From IMG/VR virus record IMGVR_UViG_3300025832_000027, positions 1 to 36,264 of that record: DNA of 36,264 nt; one strand, given 5' to 3'. Positions 5,093-36,264 of the stretch are shown here, in pieces (the stretch's first letter is position 1; each line of letters opens with the position of its first letter). Under the pieces are notes generated by a model. The model saw only the letters and a program-made list of their open reading frames with translations. It was not told the DNA's origin and ran no database searches. Made by a program: the position numbers and the translations under genes. The DNA is from a virus.

Positions 5093-5115
5093 GTCTCTCT
5101 CCGTTCATCCAGTGA

Positions 5116-5135
5116 CACGGCCCCGCAAGGCCGTG
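5116..5135 (-). promoter_or_regulatory. Intercistronic hairpin
   Basis: A 7-bp perfect inverted repeat (CACGGCC / GGCCGTG) with a 6-base loop, in the 51-base gap between the DUF669 gene and the nuclease gene. No U-tract follows on either strand. It is more likely an RNA stability or processing element than a terminator. Confidence 0.45.
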
Positions 5136-5143
5136 CTTCTAAA

Positions 5144-5608: not shown

Positions 5609-5624
5609 TGTGAAAACTCCTTGT

Positions 5625-6591: not shown

Positions 6592-6968
6592 GCCAACTTC
6601 TCCACTTTTACACCGACTTTCCCCGGCTTTGTTGTGAATGCCTCTGCAACAGACGCCCAAAGCGTCGGCTCGTTCTGAGCAAGGTATTTCATGCCCTTTG
6701 CATCAGCTTTCGGCACCATTGAAACAGGGTGCATGTTTTCAGGCAGGCGGTGCTTCACCATATCCCAAGCGTTCGCATCAACCGACCGCGTAATGGGCTG
6801 GTTCAACGTAACCTTGTAGTTTTCGGTTTTGTGGGTAATGGCCCCTTCGTCCTTGGCTTCAAATGCCGCGACGATTTCAGCCTCAATTTTTATACGGTTG
6901 CGGTTCGCAGTCGTTTCAATTTGCTTTTGCTCCAGCCAATCGGCCAGCAGTTGATCGGTATTGCTCAT
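6588..6968 (-). CDS. Conserved phage protein of the recombination block (DUF7173-like)
   Basis: A 126-residue protein. It opens MSNTDQLLADWLEQKQIETT, continues as a helical stretch (RNRIKIEAEIVAAFEAKDEG), then a beta region (THKTENYKVTLNQPITRSVD), and ends FTTKPGKVGVKVEKLA. This layout, including the terminal T-T-K-P-x-K, resembles a widespread phage protein (DUF7173 by my recollection) that precedes DUF669 and Sak4-like genes. Function is unknown; the context suggests recombination or ssDNA metabolism. AAGGAG precedes the ATG at 6968. It is the first gene after the leftward promoter at 7003-7031. Confidence 0.78.
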   Translation of the reverse strand: MSNTDQLLADWLEQKQIETTANRNRIKIEAEIVAAFEAKDEGAITHKTENYKVTLNQPITRSVDANAWDMVKHRLPENMHPVSMVPKADAKGMKYLAQNEPTLWASVAEAFTTKPGKVGVKVEKLA

Positions 6969-6999
6969 ACCATTCTCCTTTTCAACTTCTTCAACACCA

Positions 7000-7028
7000 T
7001 TGACGTTACCCGCGCACTTTGGCATGGT
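7000..7028 (+). promoter_or_regulatory. Rightward promoter of the HTH gene (overlaps leftward promoter)
   Basis: TTGACG (7000-7005), 17-base spacer, CATGGT (7023-7028). The -35 is strong and the -10 weak, so activation or low basal use is likely. The predicted start is near 7035, 25 bases before the HTH ATG at 7060. The element physically overlaps the leftward promoter on the opposite strand. Confidence 0.45.
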
Positions 7029-7031
7029 CAA
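7003..7031 (-). promoter_or_regulatory. Leftward promoter of the recombination block
   Basis: On the minus strand TTGACC (7026-7031), 17-base spacer, TAACGT (7003-7008). The start would be near 6996, about 28 bases before the ATG at 6968. It shares most of its bases with the rightward promoter at 7000-7028, so the two polymerases cannot bind together. The -35 and spacing match the candidate at 11405-11433. Confidence 0.5.
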
Positions 7032-7059
7032 CAAGAAATTTCACATTGGGGAAAATAAT

Positions 7060-7236
7060 ATGAAACCGCTCAAAAGTATCGCCGCCCGCCTTCACGGATT
7101 GAATCTTGCATATGTCATGGAGCAAACAGGCCTCACTTACCCGACCCTGCGTCGTATTCAGCAGGGCCGCGAAAACATCCATGTCGGCACGTGGAAGGCA
7201 TTGTCAGACTTCTTTGAGCGTGAGGATCAGCTTTGA
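7060..7236 (+). CDS. Small HTH transcriptional regulator (Cro-like)
   Basis: A 58-residue DNA-binding protein, essentially one helix-turn-helix domain: LAYVMEQTGLTYPTLRRIQQGRENI spans the two HTH helices, followed by a Cro/CI-type end TWKALSDFFEREDQL. It is the only rightward gene within the leftward unit and is divergent from the recombination block, sharing the 92-base region with overlapping promoters. The expected role is to control the balance of those two promoters. GGGGA lies 7 bases before the ATG at 7060. Its end overlaps the end of the convergent methyltransferase gene by 10 bases, with no terminator visible after it. Confidence 0.82.
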   Translation: MKPLKSIAARLHGLNLAYVMEQTGLTYPTLRRIQQGRENIHVGTWKALSDFFEREDQL

Positions 7237-8384
7237 ATGGCGTCCACCATGTTTATTCTTTCTCCAATCCAGCGCATCACTGGGACAGCCATGCTGTTGC
7301 CCATTGCTTTGTATCGAGGGCCATCTGGGCAATCCTCTGGTGCCTTGTTGCGCCATGCGATCTGCGTGTAACCGTCGGGGAAGCCTTGCAGGCGCTCACA
7401 TTCAATTGGTGTGAGGCGGCGGACCTTCATGTCAGTTTGCATTACGCCTTCGTGACGTCCGCCAGCTCCGCCTCGCTGAATTGTGGGCTGGAGTTCTTTA
7501 AGCGCGTTTAGTTCTTCACTCCATCCTATCACCACCGCAGGCGTTTTGCTCTTATCCAGCGTTGGCGTGACTTCCGTTGACACGCTGTCGCCTTGTTTGG
7601 CGCTGTTTTGTGCGCCGAAGGCTATGGGCACCATATGACTTTGCTGTGCATCTTGCGCGGACATTGCGCGGCCAGTGCGAGCGCATAGCGACCCGCAAGT
7701 ATCTGGGACAAACAATGGCGCACCGCCGTTTATGTGCTGATCTTCTAGCCCCTGTTTTGATCCGAATGCAGCGTTGAGCGTAGAAGCGCACTGTGCAGGC
7801 CATCCGGCAACTTCTTCCCGCGTTTCTCGGCTCGGCGCAGGATGCCATGACAGGCTTTCTCGCTCAAATAAAACCGCTGCGGCACGTCGCCAGTCTCCAA
7901 GGTATCCGACAACGAACACACGGCGGCGTCGCTGGGCCACTCCGAAGTATTGAGCGTCAAGCACTCGGTATGCGAACCCATACCCGAGTTCGCCCAGCGC
8001 CCCGAGGAAGGTTCCAAAATCCCGTCCTCTGTTCGAAGACAGGACGCCGGGGACGTTCTCCCAAACCACCCACTTGGGCTTATGTCGTGCAGCAATGGCA
8101 AGATAGGTGAGCATGAGATTTCCCCTTGGGTCATCAAGCCCTTTGCGAAGGCCTGCGACGCTGAAGGATTGGCAGGGGGTTCCTCCCACAAGAAGGTCGA
8201 TTGGGTCATTTTGCCACTCCTTAAAGTTTGTCATATCGCCGTAATTCGGCACGTCTGGGTAATGATGCTCAAGCACTGCGCTTGGGAACTTCTCAATCTC
8301 GCTGAAGAATTGCGGCTTCCATCCAAGCGGATGCCATGCAACCGTTGCCGCTTCTACGCCGCTGCACACTGAACCATATTTCAT
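7227..8384 (-). CDS. C5-cytosine DNA methyltransferase (Dcm-like, orphan)
   Basis: A 385-residue SAM-dependent enzyme that methylates carbon 5 of cytosine in DNA. All main motifs are visible: motif I near the N-terminus (GSVCSGVEAATVAW), motif IV GGTPCQSFSVAG with catalytic Cys, motif VI WENVPGVL, motif VIII QRRRRVF, and motifs IX-X RLTPIECERLQGFPDGY and GNSMAVPVMRW. The variable region between VIII and IX (~residues 165-315) sets the target, which I cannot predict. No restriction endonuclease gene is adjacent, so it is probably protective against host restriction or regulatory. The ATG overlaps the stop of the HTH gene at 8381 (ATGA), with GGGAG upstream. Confidence 0.95.
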   Translation of the reverse strand: MKYGSVCSGVEAATVAWHPLGWKPQFFSEIEKFPSAVLEHHYPDVPNYGDMTNFKEWQNDPIDLLVGGTPCQSFSVAGLRKGLDDPRGNLMLTYLAIAARHKPKWVVWENVPGVLSSNRGRDFGTFLGALGELGYGFAYRVLDAQYFGVAQRRRRVFVVGYLGDWRRAAAVLFERESLSWHPAPSRETREEVAGWPAQCASTLNAAFGSKQGLEDQHINGGAPLFVPDTCGSLCARTGRAMSAQDAQQSHMVPIAFGAQNSAKQGDSVSTEVTPTLDKSKTPAVVIGWSEELNALKELQPTIQRGGAGGRHEGVMQTDMKVRRLTPIECERLQGFPDGYTQIAWRNKAPEDCPDGPRYKAMGNSMAVPVMRWIGERINMVDAIQS

Positions 8385-8578
8385 TCGCCCTCTCCCGCGC
8401 TAATACCCCGAAGCATCATCCCGATGGCATAGGCTGCCACTGGGTTTAGCGGCCTGTCGCCCTGCTCCCAGCGGCGGATTGTGCGCCCGCCATTGGCCCC
8501 CATGCCCCACTCGTCGGCCAGCGCCTGCTGGCTGTATGCGAGAGCGCGTCTGGCCTCTTTGAACTGCTCTGGCGTCAT
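8381..8578 (-). CDS. HTH (XRE-like) regulator
   Basis: A 65-residue helix-turn-helix protein: MTPEQFKEARRALAYSQQAL, then ADEWGMGANGGRTIRRWEQGDRP, typical of XRE/YiaG-type domains in which the recognition helix follows the ANGGRTIRRWE turn. The ATG at 8578 is preferred over 8593 because GGAGG lies 8 bases upstream. It is part of a chain of four genes with overlapping start and stop codons ending in the methyltransferase, and could regulate that chain through the palindrome at 8978-8989. Confidence 0.85.
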   Translation of the reverse strand: MTPEQFKEARRALAYSQQALADEWGMGANGGRTIRRWEQGDRPLNPVAAYAIGMMLRGISAGEGE

Positions 8579-8718
8579 TGTGTAAACCTCCATCCCCCGC
8601 GAGGCCCAAATTTTACTTTGCGGATGCTGTCGTCGGCCATCATAACAACGGCCACGATTTCAGACTTTTCGCGTTTTGCGCGGAGGTAAACCTCCCGGAA
8701 TGTAGGAACCGCGCTCAT
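8575..8718 (-). CDS. 47-residue basic hypothetical protein
   Basis: A short gene starting MSAVPTFREVYLRAKREKSE and ending RKVKFGPRGGWRFTQ. It is strongly basic, with a helix followed by a beta hairpin. It is real by context: its ATG (8718) overlaps the upstream TGA and its TGA (8575-8577) overlaps the downstream ATG, both as ATGA. The family is not recognised. It could be a nucleic-acid-binding accessory to the HTH gene it is coupled to. Confidence 0.7.
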   Translation of the reverse strand: MSAVPTFREVYLRAKREKSEIVAVVMMADDSIRKVKFGPRGGWRFTQ

Positions 8719-8924
8719 TGCGCGGCACCATATGTTTGGATGCAAATTTCTGCGAGGTATTCGCGAAGCGGCTCGTTTTCAAGCAGCTCAATAACCATCT
8801 GTCCTTCGGGCAGGTTTGCCTTTCGGGCAAAAGCTTCAACTGCCGTCGGCAGCGCAATAAGCGCCTTCGCAGGCATCCGCATTTTTGCGGCAATCGGAGC
8901 GAGAGAGTAAGAACAAAGAGCCAT
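8715..8924 (-). CDS. Hypothetical protein, first gene of the methyltransferase chain
   Basis: A 69-residue helical protein, MALCSYSLAPIAAKMRMPAK to LAEICIQTYGAAQ. The segment KALIALPTAVEAFARKANLP could be a helix-turn-helix, but I cannot assign a family. Strong AGGAGG ribosome site 5 bases from the ATG. It heads a four-gene overlapping chain (this gene, 47-residue protein, HTH, methyltransferase) transcribed from the candidate promoter at 8989-9017. Confidence 0.75.
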   Translation of the reverse strand: MALCSYSLAPIAAKMRMPAKALIALPTAVEAFARKANLPEGQMVIELLENEPLREYLAEICIQTYGAAQ

Positions 8925-8977
8925 GATGGCCTCCTATTTTGCCGGTAAAACCTCCGGCTGGGCTGGGCTTCATTGCC

Positions 8978-8989
8978 CTATGCACATAG
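8978..8989. promoter_or_regulatory. 12-bp palindromic operator candidate
   Basis: CTATGCACATAG, a perfect inverted repeat of CTATG and CATAG around two bases. It sits at the predicted transcription start of the methyltransferase chain, touching the -10 element, the usual place for a repressor site. Either HTH protein (8381-8578 or 7060-7236) could bind it. Confidence 0.5.
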
Positions 8990-9017
8990 AAATAGGACAT
9001 CTGGCCCTCAGTGTAAA
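8989..9017 (-). promoter_or_regulatory. Leftward promoter of the methyltransferase chain
   Basis: On the minus strand TTTACA (9012-9017), 17-base spacer, TATTTC (8989-8994). The -35 is good, the -10 moderate. It lies in the 118-base gap after the PrimPol gene. The leader downstream also contains a GCCGG/CCGGC hairpin before the AGGAGG ribosome site. Confidence 0.4.
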
Positions 9018-9042
9018 GGGGGTCAGGTCACTTTTTTTGAAA

Positions 9043-11328
9043 TTATTGAATACCCCGATGGATAATGGACGGGCGGCCCTTGCCGCTCTCCGGCTTTACC
9101 ACCAGCCGCTCAATCTCATAGTCCTCGACCACCATTGCCAATAAGCCATCGCGCTCGTGCTTCTTGAGGTTGCCCAGGCGCGGCACTTTCTTGAGCAGTT
9201 CGTTCATCTTCACCCCTGCGCTCCCCGACTTCACAATCGCGTCTGCAACCAGCTTTCGCAGTCCGTCTGTATCGCCTTCTGACAGGTTCACATCCATGAT
9301 GCCCAGCGTTTGTGTCAGGTAAAACTCCACATAATCAATCGCCCATTGTGCCGCCGTTTCGGTGATTTCAGCATCGCCCAGCGACACCGCAACAATCAGG
9401 CTCAGTCGCATGGCAATCTCGCGGCTGCGGTTCATCATGTCAGCAATCATCGGCGTTGATGCATTCTGCCTGTCAACAATCGTTTGCTCATAGGATGTAA
9501 ACATTTTCCGCGCAGCCAAATTGAACGGCACCAGCACCGGCTCAGGTGGAAACTCCGCGCCATTGTCTTGCAGGTTTCCGCCCTCGCCCTCAGCCACCGA
9601 CACCGCCTTAATCCAGCCCACCACCGAGCCAGGCACATCAATGTTTTCAGGAACCCGCGACAATTCGCGTGGCCGCTTGCTTTCCACAATCAGCAGCCGG
9701 TTCAGGAACCCGCTTGCCACGTCCTTGGCCCCAATCGCCTCGTAAAATGTTTCTGGCGTCGTCATGCCGATGATCGTCAGCGATGGTGACTTAACCTCAA
9801 CTTGCAGTGCTTTCTTCTGGCTTTCCGTCGCCATCATCGTTGAATAGCCCACGTTGCGCAGCGTTTTTATCTGCCTACCCCATGCTTCCATGAGCATTGT
9901 CAGCGCGTCTTTTTTGTGCTGGTTTCCCTTGGCGCTTGCCGAGGCCAGCATTGAGCCAAACTCATCAATGACAGAAATATGAACAGGCTGGTCGTTCAGC
10001 GTGGACAGAACCCCGCTTGATGACGTGTAGCCGCTCGGCCCCCGCAAGTGCATCGCCCCTGCCGCTTCAAGCGCATCCTCAATGACCGTGTTGGCATGCT
10101 CTTTGCCAGATCCTGTCTTGCCCACATTCAGGAAGTAGAGGGATGACATATTGCGGTTGTCAGTGATGAACCGCCGCCCCATTGCCACCGAGCCGAGTGC
10201 CAACGCCGTTTGCACATCAAATTGGGGTTGTAACTTGATTGCGGTCTTTGCGCTGTAGGCAACCAAATCCCCCAGAACGCCCGGCACAGTCAGAAGGTGA
10301 GGCGGTATGTCGTCAACCACCTCCTTGCGCCCCATGATGCTCTTTGCCACCTCCGCGCCGTGCTGCATCATTGCCCTGTCTTCCTCAGACGGGCCTTGCG
10401 GTAGGGATTGGATTTGCAGCAACTCAGCCGCTGCCTTCACCGCGTTGGATACGTTGCCAAGGTGCTGGTACTGGCAAAACACCTCAAAGGCGTCGAAAGC
10501 GTGGGATGGGTCAAAAGGGTCGGATGCGTGGTGGCTGTAGGCCTTCCCATCGTCAAAGATAACCACGCCAGGGATCTTGGATGTGGATGACGGTGACAGC
10601 CAGCGGTTGCCAAACTGTTTATATCCCGCCTCCGTCAAAGCCTGCGCCATTGGCGTGGCATCGTTGTAGGTATCAATTACGGACGTGTCCCTGCTTTCAA
10701 TCCGCCTTTTCTTTGGTGGTGGCCGAAACTCCTCCACCCGCTTCCAAGGGCATAGGTCTGCCATCTGTGGCCGAAACCTGTCCCACTCATTCCATATGGT
10801 GAGAAGCTGGGGCGGTATCGGGCCAATCTGGTCGAACGGGATCCCTGCCCATTGGTATGGGTTGCCAGTGTCAGGGTGGATGGAAGGTGGTAGCACGTCT
10901 TGGACCGAGCCTGCCCGCAGCTCAAACACCACCTCGCGCAGCCTCGGGTCGTTGGGTGTTGGCCAGCTTATCTTGCGGGTGCTGAGGTTCTCGCCATCCG
11001 GCGCAAGAAACAAAACCTTGCCGCGCTCAGGCCGCCCAACAATTCGCGGGGCCGTCGCAAGGATGTGGTCGAGGTCAATGTTCAGCGCTTCAAAGATGGT
11101 GCGCGTGTTTTCCATGTGGTCAATGTCCAGCGCCACCGTACCGCTCATCGAGTGCAGCAGCCCGACGTTGTGCGTGGGGTTGGAGGACCAGAAGTCCGGC
11201 GGCGTGGGCTTGGTCTGCCATGAGAAGGTTTGTGGTGCCTTGCTGCCAGCAGGTATGGCCACAAGTTTCCAGCCCAACGCATCATAGGCATTGGCATGCT
11301 CAAGGGTATCTGATAGGGTTTTGGTCAT
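9043..11328 (-). CDS. Bifunctional primase-polymerase / helicase (PrimPol-DUF3987 type)
   Basis: A 761-residue replication protein. The N-terminal ~220 residues are an archaeo-eukaryotic-type prim-pol domain: IPAGSKAPQ, the metal-binding VALDIDH (D68, D70) and the conserved VLPPSIHPDTGNPYQW near 145-160. A middle linker (~200-340) leads to a DUF3987-like ATPase with Walker A GKTGSGKE (403-410) and Walker B VIDE (453-456), and a C-terminal winged-helix-like region (MNELLKKVPRLGNLKKHERDG). It should prime and unwind phage DNA and may extend primers. The ATG at 11328 is preceded by AGGAG 8-9 bases away; a longer frame upstream would include the hairpin and promoter and is rejected. First gene of the leftward unit. 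Confidence 0.9.
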   Translation of the reverse strand: MTKTLSDTLEHANAYDALGWKLVAIPAGSKAPQTFSWQTKPTPPDFWSSNPTHNVGLLHSMSGTVALDIDHMENTRTIFEALNIDLDHILATAPRIVGRPERGKVLFLAPDGENLSTRKISWPTPNDPRLREVVFELRAGSVQDVLPPSIHPDTGNPYQWAGIPFDQIGPIPPQLLTIWNEWDRFRPQMADLCPWKRVEEFRPPPKKRRIESRDTSVIDTYNDATPMAQALTEAGYKQFGNRWLSPSSTSKIPGVVIFDDGKAYSHHASDPFDPSHAFDAFEVFCQYQHLGNVSNAVKAAAELLQIQSLPQGPSEEDRAMMQHGAEVAKSIMGRKEVVDDIPPHLLTVPGVLGDLVAYSAKTAIKLQPQFDVQTALALGSVAMGRRFITDNRNMSSLYFLNVGKTGSGKEHANTVIEDALEAAGAMHLRGPSGYTSSSGVLSTLNDQPVHISVIDEFGSMLASASAKGNQHKKDALTMLMEAWGRQIKTLRNVGYSTMMATESQKKALQVEVKSPSLTIIGMTTPETFYEAIGAKDVASGFLNRLLIVESKRPRELSRVPENIDVPGSVVGWIKAVSVAEGEGGNLQDNGAEFPPEPVLVPFNLAARKMFTSYEQTIVDRQNASTPMIADMMNRSREIAMRLSLIVAVSLGDAEITETAAQWAIDYVEFYLTQTLGIMDVNLSEGDTDGLRKLVADAIVKSGSAGVKMNELLKKVPRLGNLKKHERDGLLAMVVEDYEIERLVVKPESGKGRPSIIHRGIQ

Positions 11329-11361
11329 TGGAACCGCTCCTCCCTTTAAGGTTTCAATCGC

Positions 11362-11395
11362 GCCCCAGGTTGTTTCAGCAACGCTGGGGCTTTTT
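11362..11395 (+). terminator. Rho-independent terminator, rightward orientation
   Basis: GCCCCAG-GTTG (11362-11372) pairs with CAAC-G-CTGGGGC (11379-11390), an 11-bp stem with one bulged G and a 6-base loop, followed by TTTTT (11391-11395). It acts only on rightward RNA. The nearest rightward gene upstream is the HTH gene more than 4 kb away, so it would end antisense transcripts just before they leave the PrimPol gene. On the leftward strand the same hairpin lies in the PrimPol leader. Confidence 0.75.
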
Positions 11396-11404
11396 CGTGG
11401 CCCC

Positions 11405-11433
11405 TTGCTAGCCCTATAAAGTTCGACGGTCAA
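11405..11433 (-). promoter_or_regulatory. Leftward promoter of the PrimPol gene
   Basis: On the minus strand TTGACC (11428-11433), 17-base spacer, TAGCAA (11405-11410). The same -35 and spacing occur in the leftward promoter at 7003-7031, suggesting a shared early promoter type. The -10 is weak. The leader of about 70 bases contains the strong hairpin at 11362-11390. Confidence 0.4.
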
Positions 11434-11556
11434 GGGGCGAAGTAAGTCGCGAGTTTAGTCAGGCGCTCAAGAAAGTCTAAACTTCGTAGAAATCTAGTTT
11501 GATTTGAAACGTGGTTACGAATTTTGTAATCGTCAATGAAACAAGGGGTGTTGGTG

Positions 11557-11600
11557 TAGTAGTAGTAGTATATATATATATATATTCTTTATTATATACC
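11557..11600. repeat. TAG trinucleotide and TA dinucleotide tract with AT-rich flank
   Basis: Four TAG units pass directly into a run of TA units (to ~11585), then an AT-rich stretch. This is the most easily melted DNA in the window. It could serve as a DNA-unwinding element; simple repeats are also prone to slippage. Confidence 0.8.
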
Positions 11601-11830
11601 TATACACCCGTGAGGCACACACAGTCCTAGTGGGCTAGTGTCGGCAAGTTTTATCATTTTTATAATTAGGTAATCGCCACAACAAGATCATGCCAACACC
11701 ATAGACACCACGCACCTAGCGTGGCTGGAATGCGCATGAGAGGCGCAGAGCGGCTCTGTGAGCGGCGTTAGGGTGTGCTTGGCTACCCTTATCACCAAAT
11801 GAATGAGATGGCTCTGTATGGGGCTGTTTG

Positions 11831-11930
11831 GTGGGGGTTGGGGTTTGGTGGGGGTGTTGGGGTGTTGGGTGTTGGGTGTTGGTGGGGGTTGGAGGTTGGG
11901 GGTTGGAGGTTGGAGGTTGGGGGTTGGAGG
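11831..11930 (+). repeat. G-rich imperfect tandem repeat block (quadruplex potential)
   Basis: About 100 bases made almost only of G and T with some A. It contains repeated GGTGTTGGGTGTT-type and GGAGGTTGGGGGTT-type units and at least nine runs of three to five G. The G-rich strand is the late coding strand. Several G-quadruplexes could form. Open frames through it are low-complexity artefacts. Confidence 0.85.
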
Positions 11931-11980
11931 CGCGCTCACGCACACACCGCTGGCCGCACAGCCTCGAGCGCGGGACGCTG

Positions 11981-12013
11981 ATAGGTCCAGTTGACGATGC
12001 CGAATAGGTCCAG
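11981..12013. repeat. Direct repeat pair ATAGGTCCAG
   Basis: ATAGGTCCAG at 11981-11990 and 12004-12013, 23 bases start to start, about two helical turns, so a protein bound to both would lie on the same face. It sits just before the CAAAAGCGGTCC series. Confidence 0.6.
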
Positions 12014-12033
12014 ATTAGGGGGCGGGATGACGC

Positions 12034-12079
12034 CAAAAGCGGTCCGCCTGAACATCAAAAGCGGTCCCAAAAGCGGTCC
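12034..12079. repeat. Three iteron-like repeats CAAAAGCGGTCC
   Basis: Exact 12-base copies at 12034-12045, 12056-12067 and 12068-12079; the last two abut. Direct repeats of this size are typical of initiator or small-terminase binding sites. The terminase small-subunit gene starts 287 bases downstream. Confidence 0.75.
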
Positions 12080-12290
12080 CAATTATATGTCGGATCGCTA
12101 ACGTGCTGTTATCATTGGATTAAATGAGGCTGGTTTGGTGCCTGCTGTGGGCACCCAACTGAACACAGCTCCAGATTGGCCAGACCCCCCCCGTGGTGTG
12201 GGCGCGGCGGGGGCGGCTGTGACAGAGACATCCACACACACAAAAATCCCCTACCTACACCAAACCCCAGCTACCCCCCCCCTACCCCAT

Positions 12291-12304
12291 GCGTTCTGGA
12301 ACGC
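12291..12304. promoter_or_regulatory. 14-bp palindrome upstream of the late promoter (operator candidate)
   Basis: GCGTTCTGGAACGC, 6-base arms around TG, ending 3 bases before the -35 element. A GAACGC half-site recurs at 12345-12350 around the predicted transcription start. The layout suggests a dimeric activator or repressor controlling late transcription. Confidence 0.6.
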
Positions 12305-12307
12305 ACC

Positions 12308-12336
12308 TTTTCAAAAAAAATTTTGCGTTGTATGAT
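12308..12336 (+). promoter_or_regulatory. Late rightward promoter
   Basis: TTTTCA (12308-12313), 17-base spacer containing an A8 run, TATGAT (12331-12336, five of six consensus). The predicted start is near 12343, about 23 bases before the terminase small-subunit ATG. No other good promoter is seen for the whole 22-kb late unit. Confidence 0.6.
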
Positions 12337-12365
12337 TTGGATTGAACGCATTTGGGAGAGTATCG

Positions 12366-12845
12366 ATGGCGGGTCGCAAGTTTCGTAGAATGGTTATGAA
12401 GCACTTGGAGGATTTGGGCGGGACGGATTACGTCTTGGATTACATTGGCGATGGCGGGACTGTGAAGGCTTTGTCTGAGAAGACAAATTGCAGCCGTAGT
12501 TTTTTGAGCCGTGTATTGAATGGCACGCCCGAGTATCGGGCTGCGTTGGATGAGGGCCGGCGTATTCTGGCTGACAAGATGGCTGATGATAGTTTGGCGA
12601 TGGTTGATGATCTGGCTGGCAAGGAGGATTTGACGTCGCAGGACGTTCAGTTGGCGAAGGAGCGGATAAGTGTTCGCAAGTGGATGAGCGCGCTGAATCA
12701 TCCTGATCGGTTTGCGCCGAAGAAGGAGGAGGTCACGATTAACATTGGCCAGCTTCATCTTGGTGCGTTGAAAAAGATCAAGGCTGAGATGCTGGATGTG
12801 ACGCCGGTTGCTGAGGCGATTGAGGGCAACACGTCTGATGAGTGA
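12366..12845 (+). CDS. Terminase small subunit (putative)
   Basis: A 159-residue protein. Residues ~30-65 form a helix-turn-helix (GTVKALSEKTNCSRSFLSRVLNG), followed by a long charged helical region for oligomerisation (EYRAALDEGRRILADKMADD) and a C-terminal segment that could contact the large subunit. Small terminases recognise the phage packaging site and load the motor. Assignment is by fold pattern and its place three genes before the large subunit. The ATG at 12366 has GGGAGA 7 bases upstream; a TTG at 12342 is a weaker alternative. Confidence 0.8.
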   Translation: MAGRKFRRMVMKHLEDLGGTDYVLDYIGDGGTVKALSEKTNCSRSFLSRVLNGTPEYRAALDEGRRILADKMADDSLAMVDDLAGKEDLTSQDVQLAKERISVRKWMSALNHPDRFAPKKEEVTINIGQLHLGALKKIKAEMLDVTPVAEAIEGNTSDE

Positions 12846-13011
12846 TGTGATCCCTGAAAAAATCACGCGTGAAATGCTTTGGCAACTGCTGGGTGATTAC
12901 GCACTAACTGTTGCGCTGCAGGAGGGCGTGTTTTTTACTGAAAATCCTTACGTTTTACTGGCGGCTAAGCATCGTAAGGGAGAGATGATCCATGAGGGAA
13001 TGATCAAGTGA
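12838..13011 (+). CDS. 57-residue hypothetical protein between the terminase genes
   Basis: Starts MSDVIPEKITREMLWQLLGD and ends AKHRKGEMIHEGMIK. It is helical with no recognised family. The ATG at 12838 lies inside the end of the small-terminase gene (8-base overlap) and the stop overlaps the next GTG, so all are co-translated. Confidence 0.7.
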   Translation: MSDVIPEKITREMLWQLLGDYALTVALQEGVFFTENPYVLLAAKHRKGEMIHEGMIK

Positions 13012-13277
13012 CGAATGATGTGACGTATATCAGGGGTGCGCGGCCTGACGATAGTGGTTCTGAGCCTCGGCCTGCGTTGGTTGAGTATTTGGAGGAATTG
13101 CTTGAGCGTGCGCGGTCTGGTGATTTGCAGGGCATTGTGACTGTTGGGTCTGACGCTGACGGGTATGCGAGTTATGGTCTTGTTGGGGCCTGCGGTGGTT
13201 TTTCAATGCAGGGTGCGTTGGCTTGCGTTTCGACGTTGGTTGCCGAGGTGAATTTGAGTCAGCTTGATGACGAGTGA
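13008..13277 (+). CDS. 89-residue hypothetical protein
   Basis: Starts at a GTG overlapping the preceding stop (GTGA). The sequence has a helical first half (RPALVEYLEELLERARSGDL) then GIVTVGSDADGYASYGLVGACGGFSMQGALACVSTLVAEV, a beta-strand/loop/helix arrangement. Similar short proteins occur in phage genomes without known function. Its end overlaps the large-terminase start by 11 bases. Confidence 0.7.
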   Translation: MTNDVTYIRGARPDDSGSEPRPALVEYLEELLERARSGDLQGIVTVGSDADGYASYGLVGACGGFSMQGALACVSTLVAEVNLSQLDDE

Positions 13278-14670
13278 TGTAAATCCTTTAGAGGAGTTTG
13301 CGCGGACGTATTACAGCGATCCTGTTGGGTTTGTGCGTGATATGTTGGGCGTTGAGCCTTTGCCGTATCAGGCGGAGTTTTTGGAGGCGCTGGCGAGCGG
13401 CGAGCGGCGGATCTCGGTGCGGTCTGGCCACGGCACGGGTAAGTCGACGGCATCTAGCTGGGCTATGCTTTGGTTTTTGTTGTTGCGGTTTCCGAATAAG
13501 GTTGTGGTGACTGCGCCAACGAGTGGCCAGTTGTTTGACGCATTGTTTGCTGAGTTGAAGCGGTGGGTGAATGAGCTGCCGCCTGCGATTAAGGCGATGC
13601 TGACGGTGAAGTCTGACCGTGTTGAGCTGGTTGCGGCCCCGAGTGAGGCGTTTATTTCGGCGCGGACGAGTAGGGCTGAGACGCCAGAGGCGTTGGCTGG
13701 GGTTCACTCGGATAATGTTATGCTGGTTGTTGATGAGGCGTCTGGTGTGCCTGAGCAGGTGTTTGAGGCTGCGGCTGGTTCGATGTCTGGTCATTCTGCT
13801 GTAACGATTATGCTATCGAACCCGACGCGATCGAGCGGGACGTTTTTTGAGAGCCAGACGCGGCTGTCTGGATCTTGGTGGACTCGGCGGTGGTCTTGCG
13901 TTGAAAGCCCGCTGGTTTCGGGTGAGTTTGTTGACGAGATGCGGCTGCGGTACGGTGAGGAGAGCAATGCTTTTCGTATTCGTGTTTTGGGTGAGTTTCC
14001 GACTGCCGATGACAACACGATTATTCCGTTTCATTTGGCTGAAAGCGCGATGCACCGTGATATTGAGATGACGCCTGGGCTGCAGCCGATCTGGGCGATC
14101 GACCCAGCGCGATTTGGGTCTGACAGGACGGCATTTTGCAAGCGCGTTGGCAATGTGATTACCGAGATCACGTCTTGGCAGGGTTTGGATTTGATGCAGA
14201 CTGTTGGGCGCGTGATGGCAGAGTATGAGTCTTTGCCGATCAGCCAGCGGCCCAGCGAGATCCTCGTTGACAGCATTGGCGTTGGCGGCGGAGTTGTTGA
14301 CCGTTTGCGGGAGCTGGGTGCGCCTGTGCGTGGCGTAAATGTTTCCGAGGTGCCGTCGATGGGCAAGACGTATAACAACTTGCGGACTGAGCTTTGGTTT
14401 AAGACGAAAGCGTGGCTTGAGGACCGATCTTGTAAAATTCCTGACAACGATGCGTTGGTCGCTGATCTGACTGGGATTCGGTATTCATTTACGTCGTCTG
14501 GGAAAATGCAGGCGGAGAGCAAGGACGCGATGAAGAAGCGCGGGCTGAAGTCGCCGGACCTTGCTGATGCTGTTTGCCTGACGATGGCGTCTGACGCGAT
14601 TACGGCGCTGAGTGGAAAGCGATCTGTGTGGGGTAAGCCGCTGCGCAGGGCGTTGAAGGGGATAGCTTAG
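13267..14670 (+). CDS. terL: Terminase large subunit
   Basis: A 467-residue packaging motor. The ATPase domain shows the adenine region PLPYQAEFLEAL, Walker A SGHGTGKST (53-61) and Walker B with catalytic Glu VVDEASG (154-160), followed by the coupling motif SNPTRSSGTF. The nuclease domain carries WAIDPARFGSDRTA, ILVDSIGVGGGV and SPDLADAVCL, the three acidic clusters of the RNase H-like fold. It cuts and translocates phage DNA into the prohead through the portal. I start at the ATG at 13267. Codon choice here favours G- and T-ending codons more than in the capsid genes. Confidence 0.96.
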   Translation: MTSDVNPLEEFARTYYSDPVGFVRDMLGVEPLPYQAEFLEALASGERRISVRSGHGTGKSTASSWAMLWFLLLRFPNKVVVTAPTSGQLFDALFAELKRWVNELPPAIKAMLTVKSDRVELVAAPSEAFISARTSRAETPEALAGVHSDNVMLVVDEASGVPEQVFEAAAGSMSGHSAVTIMLSNPTRSSGTFFESQTRLSGSWWTRRWSCVESPLVSGEFVDEMRLRYGEESNAFRIRVLGEFPTADDNTIIPFHLAESAMHRDIEMTPGLQPIWAIDPARFGSDRTAFCKRVGNVITEITSWQGLDLMQTVGRVMAEYESLPISQRPSEILVDSIGVGGGVVDRLRELGAPVRGVNVSEVPSMGKTYNNLRTELWFKTKAWLEDRSCKIPDNDALVADLTGIRYSFTSSGKMQAESKDAMKKRGLKSPDLADAVCLTMASDAITALSGKRSVWGKPLRRALKGIA

Positions 14671-14706
14671 GGCTAGCCTTGCCAGAATGGCCTATTGCGT
14701 GTAAGT

Positions 14707-14721
14707 TAAGCCAAAGGCTTA
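14707..14721 (+). promoter_or_regulatory. Small hairpin in front of the 124-residue protein gene
   Basis: TAAGCC-AAA-GGCTTA, a perfect 6-bp stem with a 3-base loop, 37 bases after the terminase stop and 13 before the next ATG. It is not followed by a U-tract. It may limit ribosome access or mark an RNA processing site. Confidence 0.4.
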
Positions 14722-14734
14722 CGGGGTGCAAGGC

Positions 14735-15109
14735 ATGATGGGTTACGGATACGGCAGCGGCGATCAGCGGGTGAATGCTGTTATTGATATGATCAATGGC
14801 GGCGGTCAGGGCCGTGCCGGTCAGCAATTTGAGGGCGGCGGGCTTTTGAGCATGCTTGGGAATGCCATTGCGCGGCCTTATGGCGCCGATGCTGACGCCC
14901 CTGCTTCCTCTATGGCACCTCTGGCGCGTCCTGCTTCATTTGCAACTGCCACGCCTATTCAATCGAGCATGCCTGCGCAGGCTCCGATGCCTGTGTTTCA
15001 GCCGCCTGCGCCTGTGCAGACATCGTACCTTGATCCGCAGTTTGATTTAGAGCGCATTCTTGCTGGTTTGAACCAGATGCAAGATCCTCGTATGGTTGGG
15101 CCTCGGTAG
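14735..15109 (+). CDS. Hypothetical Gly/Pro/Ala-rich structural protein
   Basis: A 124-residue protein: MMGYGYGSGDQRVNAVIDMI, a Gly-rich centre, then a Pro/Ala/Met-rich low-complexity region (SSMPAQAPMPVFQPPAPVQ) and a C-terminal helix LDPQFDLERILAGLNQMQDP. It looks like a flexible virion or ejection component; no family is recognised. The stop TAG abuts the transglycosylase ATG. The start could equally be the second ATG at 14738. Confidence 0.65.
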   Translation: MMGYGYGSGDQRVNAVIDMINGGGQGRAGQQFEGGGLLSMLGNAIARPYGADADAPASSMAPLARPASFATATPIQSSMPAQAPMPVFQPPAPVQTSYLDPQFDLERILAGLNQMQDPRMVGPR

Positions 15110-15628
15110 ATGGCTAATGACCTTGTAACATTCGATAAGCTGATGCGGGCAATCGCAATGCGTGAAAGCACCATGAATCCGAATGCGGTTTCTGATGCGG
15201 GCGCGGTTGGGCTGCTTGGCATAATGCCCAAAGACGCAATGCGCGGAATGCGGGATGGCGTGCCGACTGTTTGGCAGGCTGCCGAGGCCGAAGGTTTTCA
15301 GCCGCCAGATCAAACATTGGACAGCGCAGTTTCTCTTTTAAAAGACCCAGCGGTCAATAGTATGATTGGCGAACAGTACGTCCAAGAGCTTATCAATAAA
15401 TATTATGGTGACACAGAGGGCGTTCTGACGTCTTACAATGCAGGCCCCGGCAAGTATGATAGACTTGGATCTGCTGCGGCTATGGATATTCCTGAGCAGC
15501 AAGAATACGCGCGAAAAGTTTCTGAGGATTATGAGAACTTCTTTGGCGCACCGTTGCCGGAGAATCTTGGTGTCTTGGTTTCGCCCCGCCCGCAGGTTCG
15601 GCCACGTGGCCTTATGGAGCAATACTAA
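15110..15628 (+). CDS. Lytic transglycosylase (SLT domain), virion-associated
   Basis: A 172-residue enzyme that cleaves the MurNAc-GlcNAc bond of peptidoglycan. The SLT signature is clear: catalytic Glu19 in AIAMREST, then [18 protein letters not shown], and downstream [16 protein letters not shown]. Embedded between terminase and tail genes and not in the lysis cassette, it is more likely carried in the virion for local wall digestion during DNA entry. There is no signal peptide. The C-terminal ~35 residues ([17 protein letters not shown]) are a short extension. Confidence 0.9.
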
Positions 15629-15759
15629 TGCCCCTTAAAAAAGGTTCGTCACGCAAGGTTATCTCTGGTAATATCCGCCAAGAAGTGAAGGCTGGAAAGC
15701 CGCAGAAACAGGCTGTTGCCATAGCATTGAGCAAGGCCAAGAAGGGAAAGAAGAAATGA
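15628..15759 (+). CDS. 43-residue basic protein (DUF6496-like)
   Basis: [20 protein letters not shown] at the start, then [20 protein letters not shown]. This lysine-rich micro-protein resembles a small phage protein (DUF6496 by my recollection) with the recurring S-x-x-x-I-S-x-N-I and G-x-P-x-K-Q-A-V-A-I-A. Function is unknown; binding to packaged DNA is a reasonable guess. TAATG overlap with the transglycosylase stop. Confidence 0.8.
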
Positions 15760-15845
15760 AGGCACCTAAGTTTAAGCCCTGCATGGGCTGTCCGACCCCC
15801 CGCCGGTGTGCGGCTGCTGGGCGTTGCCTGAAGGGCAAGAAATGA
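15756..15845 (+). CDS. 29-residue cysteine-rich peptide (zinc-knuckle-like)
   Basis: A micro-protein with four cysteines (C9, C12, C18, C24): [20 protein letters not shown]. The spacing would allow one metal ion. It overlaps both neighbours as ATGA (start at 15756, stop at 15843-15845 inside the adaptor ATG region), which supports translation. No family is assigned. Confidence 0.6.
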
Positions 15846-16462
15846 GCATCACAACCTACACCGAGCTGAAAGCGGCGCTTGCTGACTGGCTGCTGCGGGA
15901 TGACCTGACTGCGGTGTTGCCGACGTTTATCAGCTTGGCGGAGGCTGACATCAATCGGCGTGTGCGTCACTGGCGCATGGAAGAGCGGGCCACGTTGTCT
16001 ATATCTGGACAGTTTACGGATCTGCCTGCGGGCTTTCTTGAGGTTGCCATGTTGACGCTTTCGTCGTCGCGGCCCGTGCGGATGGAATTAATTAGCCGCG
16101 GTGAGATGCAGGACCGGCGCGAGATCAATGCGGACACGACAGGCGTGCCGCAGTATTACGCACTGACCGGCGGTCAGATTGAGGTTTATCCGACGCCGAA
16201 TGATACATATTCGGCCAACTTGGTGTATATTGCGGCCCCGACTGCACTGAGCGATGCGAATGCTGACAACTGGCTGCTGACGTATCATCCAGACATTTAT
16301 CTGTATGGGGCGCTGCTGCAGGCAGCACCGTATTTGAAGGACGATGAGCGGGTTGGCCTGTGGGGCGGATTGTTTAACGCGGCTATCGAGGCGGCCAATG
16401 TGGCCAGCGATAAGGCGCGGTTTAGCGGCACGACACCGCGATTGAAGATCAGGAGTTATTGA
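15842..16462 (+). CDS. Head-tail adaptor protein (SU10/P22 gp4-like)
   Basis: A 206-residue protein: [20 protein letters not shown], then LPTFISLAEADINRRVRHWRMEE, a beta-rich centre (TLSISGQFTDLPAGFLEV), GVPQYYALTGGQIEVYPTP, and a terminal helical part (YHPDIYLYGALLQAAPYLKDD). This order is that of the podovirus adaptor family (phiSU10/P22 gp4) that docks under the portal and connects to the tail hub. Its place before tail genes fits. Confidence 0.82.
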   Translation: MSITTYTELKAALADWLLRDDLTAVLPTFISLAEADINRRVRHWRMEERATLSISGQFTDLPAGFLEVAMLTLSSSRPVRMELISRGEMQDRREINADTTGVPQYYALTGGQIEVYPTPNDTYSANLVYIAAPTALSDANADNWLLTYHPDIYLYGALLQAAPYLKDDERVGLWGGLFNAAIEAANVASDKARFSGTTPRLKIRSY

Positions 16463-17349
16463 TGGCTACTTTTTCCTACACTAAGCCGACGGTTGGCGGA
16501 TCTGAGGATACTTGGGGCGATACGCTTAATGCAAACTGGGATGCGATTGGCACGTTTCTTGGCTCTTTGGACAGCACTGAGCTGGCTGTTTTGGACGGCA
16601 TCACGGCGTCCACGGCGGAGTTGAACCTGCTTGATGGTGTGACGGTTACTCTGTCCGACATTACGGCAACGGCGGCTGAGTTGAACCTGCTGGACGGAGT
16701 GACGGCATCAACTGCCGAGATTAACTATCTGGATGGCGTGACTTCGAGCATTCAGACGCAGATTGATAACATCCCTCAGCCCCCTGAATTGACTCAAGTC
16801 CAAGTCGAGGACGACACGTCTACGGTGTTCGGGCAGGTGTCGGGGCAGCGGTTGGCACAGGCATCCGCAAAGCACTCCTTTAGTGTTACGGAATTTACTT
16901 ACGACTTTGATGTATCCGGTGCCGTAGGGACGGTGGCGTTCACCTCCGATCTCAGTGGGTTCGACTATTTAGAAATTGAGAGTACATTATCTTTTAATGG
17001 CTCCACAACTCCAGATTTACAATTTTCCCCTAACGGCGGTTCGACTTATAGAACATCAGGATATATCGGTGGTGTTCAGGATGGCGTGGATGGTTCATCT
17101 ATCTCTAGTGGTATTCGTCTAATCAGAACGAACTCAGATGATTGCTTGGGTTTCTGCCGCATAATCGGTCTTGGCAACGCATCCGTAAAAACAACTGCAT
17201 CTGGTGTATTTGGTGGGGGGAGTAGTCGTGTAACTGCTACGGGTGGTCGCTATAACACTGACGAGGCCCACAATGCACTGCGGATTAATTTCAACGGGAG
17301 TCTTACCACTCAAGGAATCTTAAAGTTAAGGGGATATAAACGACCATGA
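16462..17349 (+). CDS. Tail fibre protein with ELNLLDGVT repeats
   Basis: A 295-residue fibre. The N-terminus (ATFSYTKPTVGGSEDTWGDTLNANWDAIG) is the virion-attachment segment common in phage fibres. Residues ~45-95 hold three collagen-like shaft repeats of the form TAELNLLDGVT / TAEINYLDGVT. The C-terminal ~190 residues are beta-rich and are probably the receptor-binding tip; from about 16860 the DNA is visibly more AT-rich than its surroundings, as expected for a swapped tip. It overlaps both neighbours (TGATG and ATGA). Confidence 0.82.
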   Translation: MATFSYTKPTVGGSEDTWGDTLNANWDAIGTFLGSLDSTELAVLDGITASTAELNLLDGVTVTLSDITATAAELNLLDGVTASTAEINYLDGVTSSIQTQIDNIPQPPELTQVQVEDDTSTVFGQVSGQRLAQASAKHSFSVTEFTYDFDVSGAVGTVAFTSDLSGFDYLEIESTLSFNGSTTPDLQFSPNGGSTYRTSGYIGGVQDGVDGSSISSGIRLIRTNSDDCLGFCRIIGLGNASVKTTASGVFGGGSSRVTATGGRYNTDEAHNALRINFNGSLTTQGILKLRGYKRP

Positions 17350-17612
17350 AAAAGTTTGTTTTTAGTGACGAAGGGCCTTTGATGGTTGACATGGGTGCGG
17401 CTGAAATCGCGGCCCTCAAACCCGACCCCACCACCCTCGCCTCCGAAGCCCGCTCCAAGCGCAACGCCTTGCTCACAGCATCCGACTGGACGCAGGTAGC
17501 AGACGCGCCTGTAGACCAATCGGCATGGGCTACCTATCGGCAGGCTTTGCGCGATGTGCCGGATCAGGCAGGTTTCCCCGATAACATTGATTGGCCCACC
17601 GCGCCGGAGTAA
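17346..17612 (+). CDS. Tail fibre assembly chaperone-like protein
   Basis: An 88-residue protein. After a short N-terminus it carries a motif typical of phage tail assembly chaperones: SKRNALLTASDWTQVADAPVD, then WATYRQALRDVPDQAGFPDN and a final IDWPTAPE. Such proteins fold or trimerise the fibre encoded just upstream. The ATG overlaps the fibre stop, matching the usual fibre-chaperone pairing. Confidence 0.8.
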   Translation: MKKFVFSDEGPLMVDMGAAEIAALKPDPTTLASEARSKRNALLTASDWTQVADAPVDQSAWATYRQALRDVPDQAGFPDNIDWPTAPE

Positions 17613-17616
17613 CTGA

Positions 17617-19098
17617 ATGGCACTTGTCCAACTTTCACCCCCGCCAGGGTTTCGTTATCACGGCACGGACCTTGAGAGCGAGGGCCGTTGGCGCGAGGGC
17701 AGCCTTGTGCGTTGGCGCGATGGATCTTTGCGGCCTGTAGGTGGTTGGGTTGATCGGTTCGGCTCTGTGGTCTACGCAGCAGCGCCGCGGGGGATGATCG
17801 GCTGGGAAGACAACACGGCAACAAGGTGGATTGCGGCAGGCACGTTTGAAAAGCTGCACGTCAGCAATCCAAGCGGCACGACGTACGACATTACGCCTGT
17901 GGGCTTTACGTCTGGGCTTGAGGACGCGGCTGTCAACACGGGCTACGGCGGCGGGTTGTACGGCACAGGATTTTACGGACAAGCGCGGCCTGACACTGGC
18001 AACTATTCAGAGGCGACAACGTGGTCAATGGATACGTGGGGACAGTATCTGGTTGCGTGTTCGTCCACTGACGGCAAGCTGTATGAGTGGCAGCTAAATA
18101 CGGCCACACCCGCTGCGGTTATTGCGAATGCGCCGACTGACAATCTCGGCGTTCTTGTGACCGAGGAAAGATTTGTGTTTGCTTTGGGAGCGGGCGGAGA
18201 TCCCCGCAAGGTTGCTTGGTCTGACTTTGAGGACAATACGCTTTGGGCACCGGCCAGCACCAATCAGGCGGGCGACTTGGAGTTGCAAACCCCCGGCCAG
18301 ATTATGGCGGGCGTGCGGACGCAGGGGCAGGCGTTGATTTTGACGGATCAGGACGCACACCGCGCGGTCTACGTCGGCCCGCCTTTTGTCTATCAGTTTG
18401 AGCGCGTGGGATCGTCCTGCGGGCTTGTTGCGCGTAAGGCTGTAGCGGATACGCCTGCGGGTGTATTCTGGATGGGCCAGCGCGGGTTCTTTGGCTACAA
18501 CGGATCAAATGCGCAGGAACTGAAGTGCGATGTGTGGGACAAGGTTTTCTTGGACATCAACACGGCACAGATCAGCAAAACGTGGGCAGTCACCAACGGC
18601 CAGAATGGCGAGGTGTGGTGGTTCTACTGCTCGGCAGCCAGCAATGAGATTGATCGATATGTGGCCTACGACTACAAGGAGGGCCACTGGTTGATGGGCG
18701 ACCTGTCACGCACGACCGGCATTGACCGTGGCGTATTCCGCACGCCTCTGTGGGCCGATGCTGACGGGTCTGTTTACGACCACGAAACCGGCTTTAACTA
18801 TGCGGGCGGAAATGTTTACGCCGAGAGCGGCCCGTTCAAAATTGGGTCTGGTGATAACTTGGCCGTGGTGACTGACTTGATACCCGACGAGGTAAATCTT
18901 GGCGACGTGACCACGACATTCAAGACGCGGCTCTATCCTACGGCGGCAGAGACGTCACACGGCCCCTACACGATGACAAACCCCACCAGCGTAAGGTTCC
19001 AAGGCAGGCAGGTCAGGATGCGCGTGACAGCGGCTGTGAACGGCCCGTGGAGGGTCGGGCGGTTCCGCTTTGATGTCAGGCAAGGTGGCAAGCGATGA
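17617..19098 (+). CDS. Tail hub/stabilisation protein (P22 gp10-like)
   Basis: A 493-residue beta-rich protein: LSPPPGFRYHGTDLESEGRW and LVRWRDGSLRPVGGWVDRFG at the N-terminus, GMIGWEDNTATRWIAAGT, then repeated W/Y/G-rich strands, and a C-terminal beta domain (TTFKTRLYPTAAETSHGPY). The pattern agrees with podovirus tail tube or packaged-DNA stabilisation proteins that close the portal channel below the adaptor. GGAG lies 8 bases before the ATG. The exact homology to gp10 needs profile comparison. Confidence 0.7.
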   Translation: MALVQLSPPPGFRYHGTDLESEGRWREGSLVRWRDGSLRPVGGWVDRFGSVVYAAAPRGMIGWEDNTATRWIAAGTFEKLHVSNPSGTTYDITPVGFTSGLEDAAVNTGYGGGLYGTGFYGQARPDTGNYSEATTWSMDTWGQYLVACSSTDGKLYEWQLNTATPAAVIANAPTDNLGVLVTEERFVFALGAGGDPRKVAWSDFEDNTLWAPASTNQAGDLELQTPGQIMAGVRTQGQALILTDQDAHRAVYVGPPFVYQFERVGSSCGLVARKAVADTPAGVFWMGQRGFFGYNGSNAQELKCDVWDKVFLDINTAQISKTWAVTNGQNGEVWWFYCSAASNEIDRYVAYDYKEGHWLMGDLSRTTGIDRGVFRTPLWADADGSVYDHETGFNYAGGNVYAESGPFKIGSGDNLAVVTDLIPDEVNLGDVTTTFKTRLYPTAAETSHGPYTMTNPTSVRFQGRQVRMRVTAAVNGPWRVGRFRFDVRQGGKR

Positions 19099-19748
19099 GC
19101 GCGCTCCTGCCGCCCCCTGTTGGCCCTGACTGGAAGATATGGGCGCGGCAGGTATCCACATTCCTATCGCGTGCCTTGCCAAGCCTTCAGTTTAAGACCG
19201 GCGATGAGACTGCCGCCACCAATGGCATTTTGCTTTGGGATGACATCAATGGATATCCAGTAGTATCTAAAAATGGCGAGTTTCGTCAGATTGTGTTGTC
19301 TGATGGGCAATATGAAGGCTCAATTACGGCAGACCAGACCGCGGCTGTCATAGATACGCCTTATGCACTGACCTACACGGCGGCAACGGCTGACGGCATT
19401 ACGAATGGCACGCCGGCGTCGCGTCTGGTGTTTGAGGAGGGCGGGCATTACATGGCCAGCTTTTCCGCGCAGATCACAAGCACGTCGAGCAGCACGGTGA
19501 CGTTTTATTTCTGGCCGCGTATTAACGGCGTTGACGCGCCAAATTCAACTATTGTTGCGTCCTTGCACCAGAATGACGCGACAACTGTTGTGAGCCGTGC
19601 GACAACTTTTGACGTGCAGGCCGGAGATTATCTTGAGGCGATGTGGGCTGTGGATAGAACGGACGGTTATCTTGAAGCGACCCCTGCCACGGCATTCTCG
19701 CCAGCGGCCCCCGCAACGACGCTTGGCATTACGAGGCTTTACGCATGA
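19095..19748 (+). CDS. Tail/virion structural protein with beta-sandwich C-terminus
   Basis: A 217-residue protein. Residues 1-70 are an attachment-like region (PPPVGPDWKIWARQVSTFLS). From ~85 onward is an alternating beta pattern (GGHYMASFSAQITSTSSSTV; TFDVQAGDYLEAMWAVDRTD; TPATAFSPAAPATTLGITRL) like the C1q/TNF-type jelly rolls at the ends of phage fibres and spikes. Probably an accessory fibre or appendage on the tail hub. Overlaps the preceding gene by 4 bases. Confidence 0.65.
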   Translation: MSALLPPPVGPDWKIWARQVSTFLSRALPSLQFKTGDETAATNGILLWDDINGYPVVSKNGEFRQIVLSDGQYEGSITADQTAAVIDTPYALTYTAATADGITNGTPASRLVFEEGGHYMASFSAQITSTSSSTVTFYFWPRINGVDAPNSTIVASLHQNDATTVVSRATTFDVQAGDYLEAMWAVDRTDGYLEATPATAFSPAAPATTLGITRLYA

Positions 19749-20164
19749 GCAAAGTCGGTGTTTTCTACGTTCCTGCTGACAAGATGGATCAGTATTGGCC
19801 GACATTCGGGCCAATGATTGAGCTGGCGCAGAAGCGGCTGGCGGATCAGTGCGGGATGGATGACGTGGAAGAATGGCTGCGCACTGGTCGATCGTTGCTG
19901 TGGGGCATTTACGTTGATGGCAAACCAATGGCTGCAATGATGACGGCGGAGAATACATATCCCCGCAAACGTGTTATGGTCATTGAAATGATTGGTGGCG
20001 AGCGGGCGGACCTTTGGTCGAAGCCGGCGCTGGATGAATTAGCAAGAGTGTCAAAGGCAGCGGGCTTTGACGCAATAGAAACGCATGCACGCGCAGGGTG
20101 GTCAAAAATGGCCAAACAGTATATGTTTAAGCTCAAGCACGTCGCCTATGAACTGGAGTTGTAA
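19745..20164 (+). CDS. GNAT-like acetyltransferase-fold protein
   Basis: A 139-residue protein: MSKVGVFYVPADKMDQYWPT, a helix with acidic residues, LLWGIYVDGKPMAAMMTAEN, KRVMVIEMIGGERADLWSKP, then LARVSKAAGFDAIETHARAG. The order (helix, two strands, V-x-x-I-E strand, helix with K, C-terminal strand) resembles GNAT folds found next to tail genes in several podoviruses. The usual acetyl-CoA loop Q/R-x-x-G-x-G/A is not obvious, so it may be non-catalytic. It sits between tail and ejection genes, and its role there is unknown. Confidence 0.55.
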   Translation: MSKVGVFYVPADKMDQYWPTFGPMIELAQKRLADQCGMDDVEEWLRTGRSLLWGIYVDGKPMAAMMTAENTYPRKRVMVIEMIGGERADLWSKPALDELARVSKAAGFDAIETHARAGWSKMAKQYMFKLKHVAYELEL

Positions 20165-35804: not shown

Positions 35805-36019
35805 TCCCCCAACCCTTCGGGCCTTGCCACAGGGCGTGGTGACGTTGCAGGGGCCGACGTGTAATCACAATATACGTCAACCTCATGCCCCAGCGCCTCG
35901 AAGTTGCGAGCGATAAACTCACCGTCGCGGACGCACTCCATCGGCTGCGTTGTCACGAACTCCTCGCCTGCATACGGGCCTGACGTGATGATGAATGTGA
36001 TGAATGCTAGAAGTTTCAT
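35801..36019 (-). CDS. 72-residue possibly secreted protein
   Basis: The first ~18 residues (MKLLAFITFIITSGPYAG) look like a signal peptide or membrane anchor, followed by a small domain with two Cys (MECVRDGEF and VDVYCDYTS) and a Pro-rich end. It could act in the periplasm with one disulphide. The ATG overlaps the stop of the Ala-rich gene (TAATG). Confidence 0.7.
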   Translation of the reverse strand: MKLLAFITFIITSGPYAGEEFVTTQPMECVRDGEFIARNFEALGHEVDVYCDYTSAPATSPRPVARPEGLGE

Positions 36020-36264
36020 TATCCTGCCTCCGAGATGATTCGCAATAAAGTGTTACGCTGACGCATTGTAGCGGCATCGGCCTCAGCGGCATCGGCGGCG
36101 GCATCGGCGGCGGCACGGGCGGCATAGGCGGCGGCATCGGCGGCATCGGCGACATCGGCGGCGGCATAGGCGGAACGGGCCTGTGACCAGTCTCCGCCAG
36201 AAACCAGCGCATCCATTCCCTCTATCACAGGATCAATTACCGCCTGAATGTCCGCTGTGACTGT
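36019..36264 (-). CDS. Alanine-rich repeat protein, C-terminal part (continues from 488-1)
   Basis: The C-terminal end of the protein that starts at 488. After GGDWSQARSAYAAADVADAA it runs through tripeptide-based Ala repeats with Asp, Tyr or Arg at every third or fourth position and ends TMRQRNTLLRIISEAG. The low-complexity part is about 45 residues and should form a helix with one charged/aromatic face. Total protein length is about 190 residues. Compared with the other contig end, this version lacks one Ala-Ala-Tyr unit and has Asp where the other has Tyr. Confidence 0.85.
   Translation of the reverse strand, partial: TVTADIQAVIDPVIEGMDALVSGGDWSQARSAYAAADVADAADAAAYAARAAADAAADAAEADAATMRQRNTLLRIISEAG
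36116..36264. repeat. Right copy of the terminal overlap
   Basis: Bases 36139-36264 are identical to 33-158; 36116-36138 align to 1-32 with one 9-base gap and one substitution. See the left copy at 1-158. Confidence 0.9.

Follow-up and report, generated by a model that had tools for sequence, protein, structure and literature searches.

Does a viral contig whose two ends carry the same gene in two different versions reflect two forms of that gene in one sample, or an error of assembly, and what kind of protein does such a gene encode? The question is raised by the IMG/VR virus record IMGVR_UViG_3300025832_000027, the whole of which (36264 bases) was analysed here and is called the window in the following. 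A gene on the minus strand has its start codon at position 488, leaves the left end of the window and resumes at the right end, where it occupies positions 36264-36019.

Two forms of one gene at the ends of the contig

As the original prediction stated, the two ends hold one and the same gene. Positions 33-158 recur without mismatch at 36139-36264, an overlap of 126 nt, identified by sequence comparison, that spans the N-terminal domain from Thr111 and the start of an Ala-rich array. The first mismatch past the overlap is a single base within this array (a at position 32, c at 36138), by which a Tyr codon (TAT) at the left end faces an Asp codon (GAT) at the right end. The left copy retains only 32 nt beyond the divergence point and can be aligned to the right copy with a gap of 9 nt, that is, with one additional GGCGGCATA unit. 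In the left copy, the conserved N-terminal domain extends from the start codon to Trp136 (MTILTRNHADLT...GGDW) at 81-488 on the minus strand, as delimited by sequence comparison and modelled by AlphaFold with a pLDDT mostly above 90, and is followed at 1-80 by the first part of the array in its long form, cut by the contig end. In the right copy, a short form of the array (36067-36186) is followed by a conserved C-terminal helix, MRQRNTLLRIISEAG (36022-36066; sequence comparison, helix pLDDT 94-96), and by the stop codon of the reading frame (36019-36021), all on the same strand.

The entire gene is contained in a second IMG/VR record, IMGVR_UViG_3300009505_001341 (5433 bases; hereafter L003). 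Positions 1-3947 of L003 correspond without mismatch to window positions 3947-1, and positions 3964-5433 to 36145-34675 save for one SNP, which is the sole difference outside the array in about 5.4 kb, with no other indel. The L003 array exceeds the one at the right end of the window by exactly 54 nt (18 codons, YAAYAAAYAARAAADAAA in the protein) and holds a 15-codon tandem duplication with an exact repeat of 52 nt, and the proteins come to 209 aa in the long form and 191 aa in the short form. The left end of the window matches L003 to its last base and stops 32 nt past the divergence point, within the longer array. It is thus a cut-off piece of an L003-type array, and the extra 9-base unit with a Tyr/Asp change, as which the difference was first described, can be aligned in that way but is only a partial view of a difference of 54 nt, for which L003 provides the only complete long copy. 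The map closes to a circle of 36106 nt with the short form and 36160 nt with the long form, which indicates that the window represents an essentially complete, circularly mapping genome of about 36.1 kb, opened within the array-bearing gene. When exact patterns of the flanks were used as queries, L003 was the only further copy of this phage to be recovered.

The form of the contig ends makes it likely that both array lengths coexisted in one sample. The overlap stops precisely where the long and the short form part, and its length of 126 nt, or 127-1, is what a forked assembly graph built with k=127 might leave behind, although with some assemblers the overlap at such a fork would be 127 rather than 126 nt. 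Furthermore, the exact homology between the short-form junction and the long form is just 6 nt, too short for a collapse of k-mers in a de Bruijn graph, so that reads of both forms were likely present. We also considered the possibility that there is a single array length, as in L003, and that the short-form junction seen at the right end is chimeric, either a product of PCR jumps from one GC-rich repeat to another or an error of the assembler. PCR chimeras would give the same picture as two true alleles. The array is GC-rich, with the 52-nt internal repeat in L003, and assemblies are interrupted there even when the isolates were plaque-purified, with adapter sequence found at the break. However, the homology at the junction is below any usual assembly k-mer, the exact overlap suggests a fork with reads behind both branches, and near-identical pairs from separate records likewise differ by array indels. 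We therefore regard a chimeric origin as rather improbable.

Fast turnover of the array in a conserved protein family

Profile searches identified related genes at 80 viral loci and two loci in bacterial MAGs, and further members were found in Xanthomonas phages and on two plasmids of Alphaproteobacteria. The family has a common design, in which a conserved N-terminal domain (N-domain) of about 136 residues, the last of which is Trp, is followed by an Ala-rich array and, in nearly all complete members, by a C-terminal helix. Six residues of the N-domain (F37, I38, C40, D90, G91 and L94) are invariant in 72 of 72 members, C36 is present in 68 and W136 in 71 of them, and the resulting signature (C-F-I-x-C, D-G-K-D-L and the terminal Trp) is found in the window gene. 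The QRD-type motif of the C-terminal helix is present in L003, at the right end of the window and in 64 of 65 complete relatives. The median dN/dS of the N-domain was 0.28 over 48 pairs, which are not independent of each other, indicating purifying selection on this domain. The original prediction had pointed to a C-x3-C-x2-H segment in this domain, which it took to be the possible working part of the protein; the two Cys are kept in 68 and 72 of the 72 members, but the His in only 46, and a metal-binding domain of this type was for this reason rejected. Searches of Pfam, NCBIfam, PADLOC and the PDB yielded no significant profile or fold match for the family, and PHROG gave marginal matches only (best 0.0011, in 3 of 72 members). 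In a survey of prophage spread among 289 genomes of its class, only the query genome was recovered.

In the IMG/VR set, the arrays are 27-110 residues long (some 80-330 nt) and consist of 51% Ala. Their lengths differ even between near-identical relatives, and the in-frame variation in protein length that was anticipated from the window is common in the family. For example, L090 and L091 are separated by one N-domain substitution and by no substitution over the 400 nt that follow, and their arrays differ by 51 nt of indels. The arrays of L034 and L037 measure 78 and 28 residues with a single substitution in the N-domain. Overall, pairs with one substitution in the approximately 400 nt of the N-domain have arrays that range from unchanged, as in the near-identical pairs L018/L019, L080/L081, L085/L086 and L035/L036, to unalignable, and in L034/L037, L051/L052 and L046/L074 the array has been replaced almost wholly next to a near-constant N-domain. 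In 11 close pairs, some of which share members, we counted 54 indel events in 2122 aligned nt of array. The N-domain had 3 such events in 4410 aligned nt, and these are probably located at the Trp border, where the division between domain and array is not certain. Since the sequence beyond the gene also diverges in some of the pairs, the clean cases are L090/L091, L076/L079, L068/L072 and L003/window.

The variation consists mainly of in-frame indels, and the near-identical alleles differ in the number of in-frame units. The spacings between repeats in the window gene are 9 or 12 nt throughout, in agreement with the prediction that all units are multiples of three, and the repeat is far from a chance occurrence, with 10 matches to a 17-mer with up to two mismatches against 0.01 expected. 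Ala is encoded by GCC or GCT in 93% of the cases in the arrays, as compared to an even use of its codons in the N-domain, and the GC content is 71% in the array versus 54% in the N-domain. The insertions in the L091 array look like tandem copies of neighbouring sequence. In L082 (3001-3684), a stretch of the array is read in a shifted frame (CRCRCR...LPLL) before the frame is restored, which appears to reflect compensating frameshifts inside the GCC-GCT repeat. At the level of DNA, the GCC-rich direct repeats of 9 and 12 nt change in number far faster than the flanks are altered, probably by replication slippage or recombination; we infer that slippage is the mechanism.

Coding minisatellites have units with a length divisible by three, the copy number of which is altered by slippage or recombination while the frame stays intact, and such repeats are usually described in surface proteins and fibres. 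The family studied here differs in that it comprises an early phage protein, that the units of 3 and 4 codons are in helical register, and that there is in addition a strong turnover of sequence. Our literature searches on Ala-rich hypervariable phage repeats found no relevant paper. The strong codon bias and the presence of direct repeats at the DNA level could also mean that the array acts as DNA, for example as a packaging or replication site, and that its coding is incidental. Yet frame and helical period are retained, conserved protein sequence flanks the array on both sides with the C-terminal motif in nearly every complete protein, and the related genes are located at varying places in their contigs, all of which makes a role as DNA very improbable indeed.

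An excess of contig ends in the array

Contigs end within the array in 16 of 78 cases, compared to 1.3 expected on length alone. In addition to the window, four records (36.5, 42, 53 and 208 kb) both begin and end within the gene. Since both ends of IMGVR_UViG_3300022839_000006 (G005; L041 and L102; 208230 bases) lie in one family gene, this record may be a nearly complete large phage genome that was broken at the array.

The Xanthomonas phages help to interpret this excess. The records of XapPhi1 and XapPhi2 stop within the homologous array; they lack about 300 nt and carry a tail sequence that we take to be a transposase adapter. XapPhi3-6 are four complete, near-identical isolates with one array length; XapPhi3/4 and XapPhi5/6 differ by five substitutions in 1.9 kb. 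According to the published description (PMC13168109), the phages of this collection were plaque-purified, and Illumina and SPAdes were used for their sequencing. As clonal isolates break in the array and yet the complete ones keep its length, the excess of contig ends is at least partly technical, and two alleles in one sample are for this reason likely rather than proven for the window. In GenBank, PP391659.1 and PP391660.1 (L109 and L116) are listed as 'complete' Xanthomonas phage genomes and yet end in the homologous array with an adapter-like tail, some 300 nt of the gene being absent.

Both array variation and loss of coverage in GC-rich sequence can cause an excess of ends, and the data do not separate the two. 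Tandem repeats longer than the assembly k-mer were rejected as a general cause, because the longest exact repeats in complete genes are only 9-65 nt (median 26), and 27-29 nt in the Xanthomonas genes of the family; one contig with a clean dovetail of 49 nt (G007) may be such a case. Variable loci, such as genomic islands and microdiverse sites, fragment short-read virome assemblies (PMC6487183), but those sites are blocks of variable gene content that extend over hundreds of bases to several kb, whereas the site described here is a short array inside one gene. For the window, our reading is that short-read assembly broke at the array, so that the contig of the 36.1-kb genome both begins and ends there. 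The array explains why several near-complete phage genomes end at one gene, and it would be wrong to take such ends for termini.

The predicted arm and its possible roles

Two members were modelled with AlphaFold, L003 and L032, in both of which the N-domain and the C-terminal helix were predicted at high confidence. The models support the earlier suggestion of a helical arm. In L003, the array forms helices at residues 138-161 and 170-207, that is, 24 residues out and 38 back, with a middle of low confidence (pLDDT about 50); in L032, which has an array of 106 residues, the helices span 143-191 and 197-259, or 49 residues out and 63 back. The returning helix is thus 14 residues longer than the outgoing one in both models, which is approximately the length of the conserved C-terminus. 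The Ala residues of 58 arrays show a periodicity with a peak at 3.55-3.75 residues, with z about 13-16 versus residue shuffles, a figure somewhat inflated by tandem duplication, and 3.3-3.9 versus unit shuffles. The array is thus predicted to fold as an antiparallel helical hairpin with an arm of variable length and a movable turn. No match to the predicted model was found in a fold search of the PDB; in BFVD, it matched A0A6J5QCR4 of an uncultured Caudovirales phage (E 3.9e-6, TM 0.72), which is uncharacterised like the window family.

We consider it fairly probable that a conserved N-domain and a C-terminal helix are joined by a slippage-prone Ala-rich hairpin arm, that the arm was present in two forms and that the assembly broke there. 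The array would fold back between the two conserved elements, and as its arms consist of Ala-X repeats of low complexity, a shift of the turn could absorb whatever is gained or lost in frame, leaving the conserved ends unmoved. The arm most likely serves as a spacer or lever under loose constraint, the exact length of which is of little importance.

The gene product is an early phage protein of an uncharacterised family. In the window, the gene is located beyond an early operon with a primase, a methyltransferase, an AAA protein, a DUF669 protein and a helicase, while relatives are located near genes for DNA polymerase, helicase and Thy1; no constant partner was found among the neighbours, which are mixed replication genes and small unknowns. 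The Xanthomonas phages KPhi1 (K1pha_60), phiXaf18, BsXeu269p/3 and XapPhi1-6 encode longer, likewise uncharacterised proteins (284-327 residues) with a related N-domain (28-33% identity, GCSVGC motif), an Ala-rich array in which S, R, E or W occupy the variable positions, and a conserved C-terminus; the gene comes after a VirE-like gene in KPhi1, phiXaf18 and BsXeu269p/3. Elsewhere in the window, a C-5 cytosine methyltransferase gene (7227-8384) has 84% DNA identity over 573 nt to the Roseobacter phages CRP-821 and CRP-822, and this gene was the sole match in a near-identity search of positions 1-20000 against phage records. The segment at 11549-12082, between the leftward early and the rightward late genes, contains TGGGGGT-type tandem repeats (11828-11930), TA/GTA microrepeats and CAAAAGCGGTCC repeats, and is a possible candidate for an origin or control region.

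Selection on the arm is also possible. One hypothesis is that the arm offers a surface to which a host or defence protein binds, so that variation of the arm is selected and the repeat serves as a contingency locus. The near-complete replacement of some arrays next to a near-constant N-domain would agree with this, as would the position of the gene in early and replication regions and, on the two plasmids, near Lar-type restriction alleviation genes. However, the arrays retain their composition and helical periodicity but not their sequence, which is the pattern that a spacer under loose constraint would show; the defence models gave no convincing match for the family; and array length is constant in the four complete Xanthomonas isolates. 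We think of a selected binding surface as unlikely, though worth keeping in mind, and it is doubtful that the array is an adjustable hairpin lever which selection keeps variable for changing host or defence targets, as a contingency locus outside the receptor-binding genes. Our preferred view is that the N-domain and the C-terminal helix are the working part of the protein and that the arm is a loosely constrained spacer.

Our findings describe a phage protein family with no entry in the libraries of families that were searched here. Its conserved domain bears an arm that changes faster than its surroundings while the helical period is kept. If the arm is under selection, it would represent an unusual case of a contingency locus outside the fibre genes; if it is neutral, it would provide a clean natural case of repetitive helices that tolerate indels.
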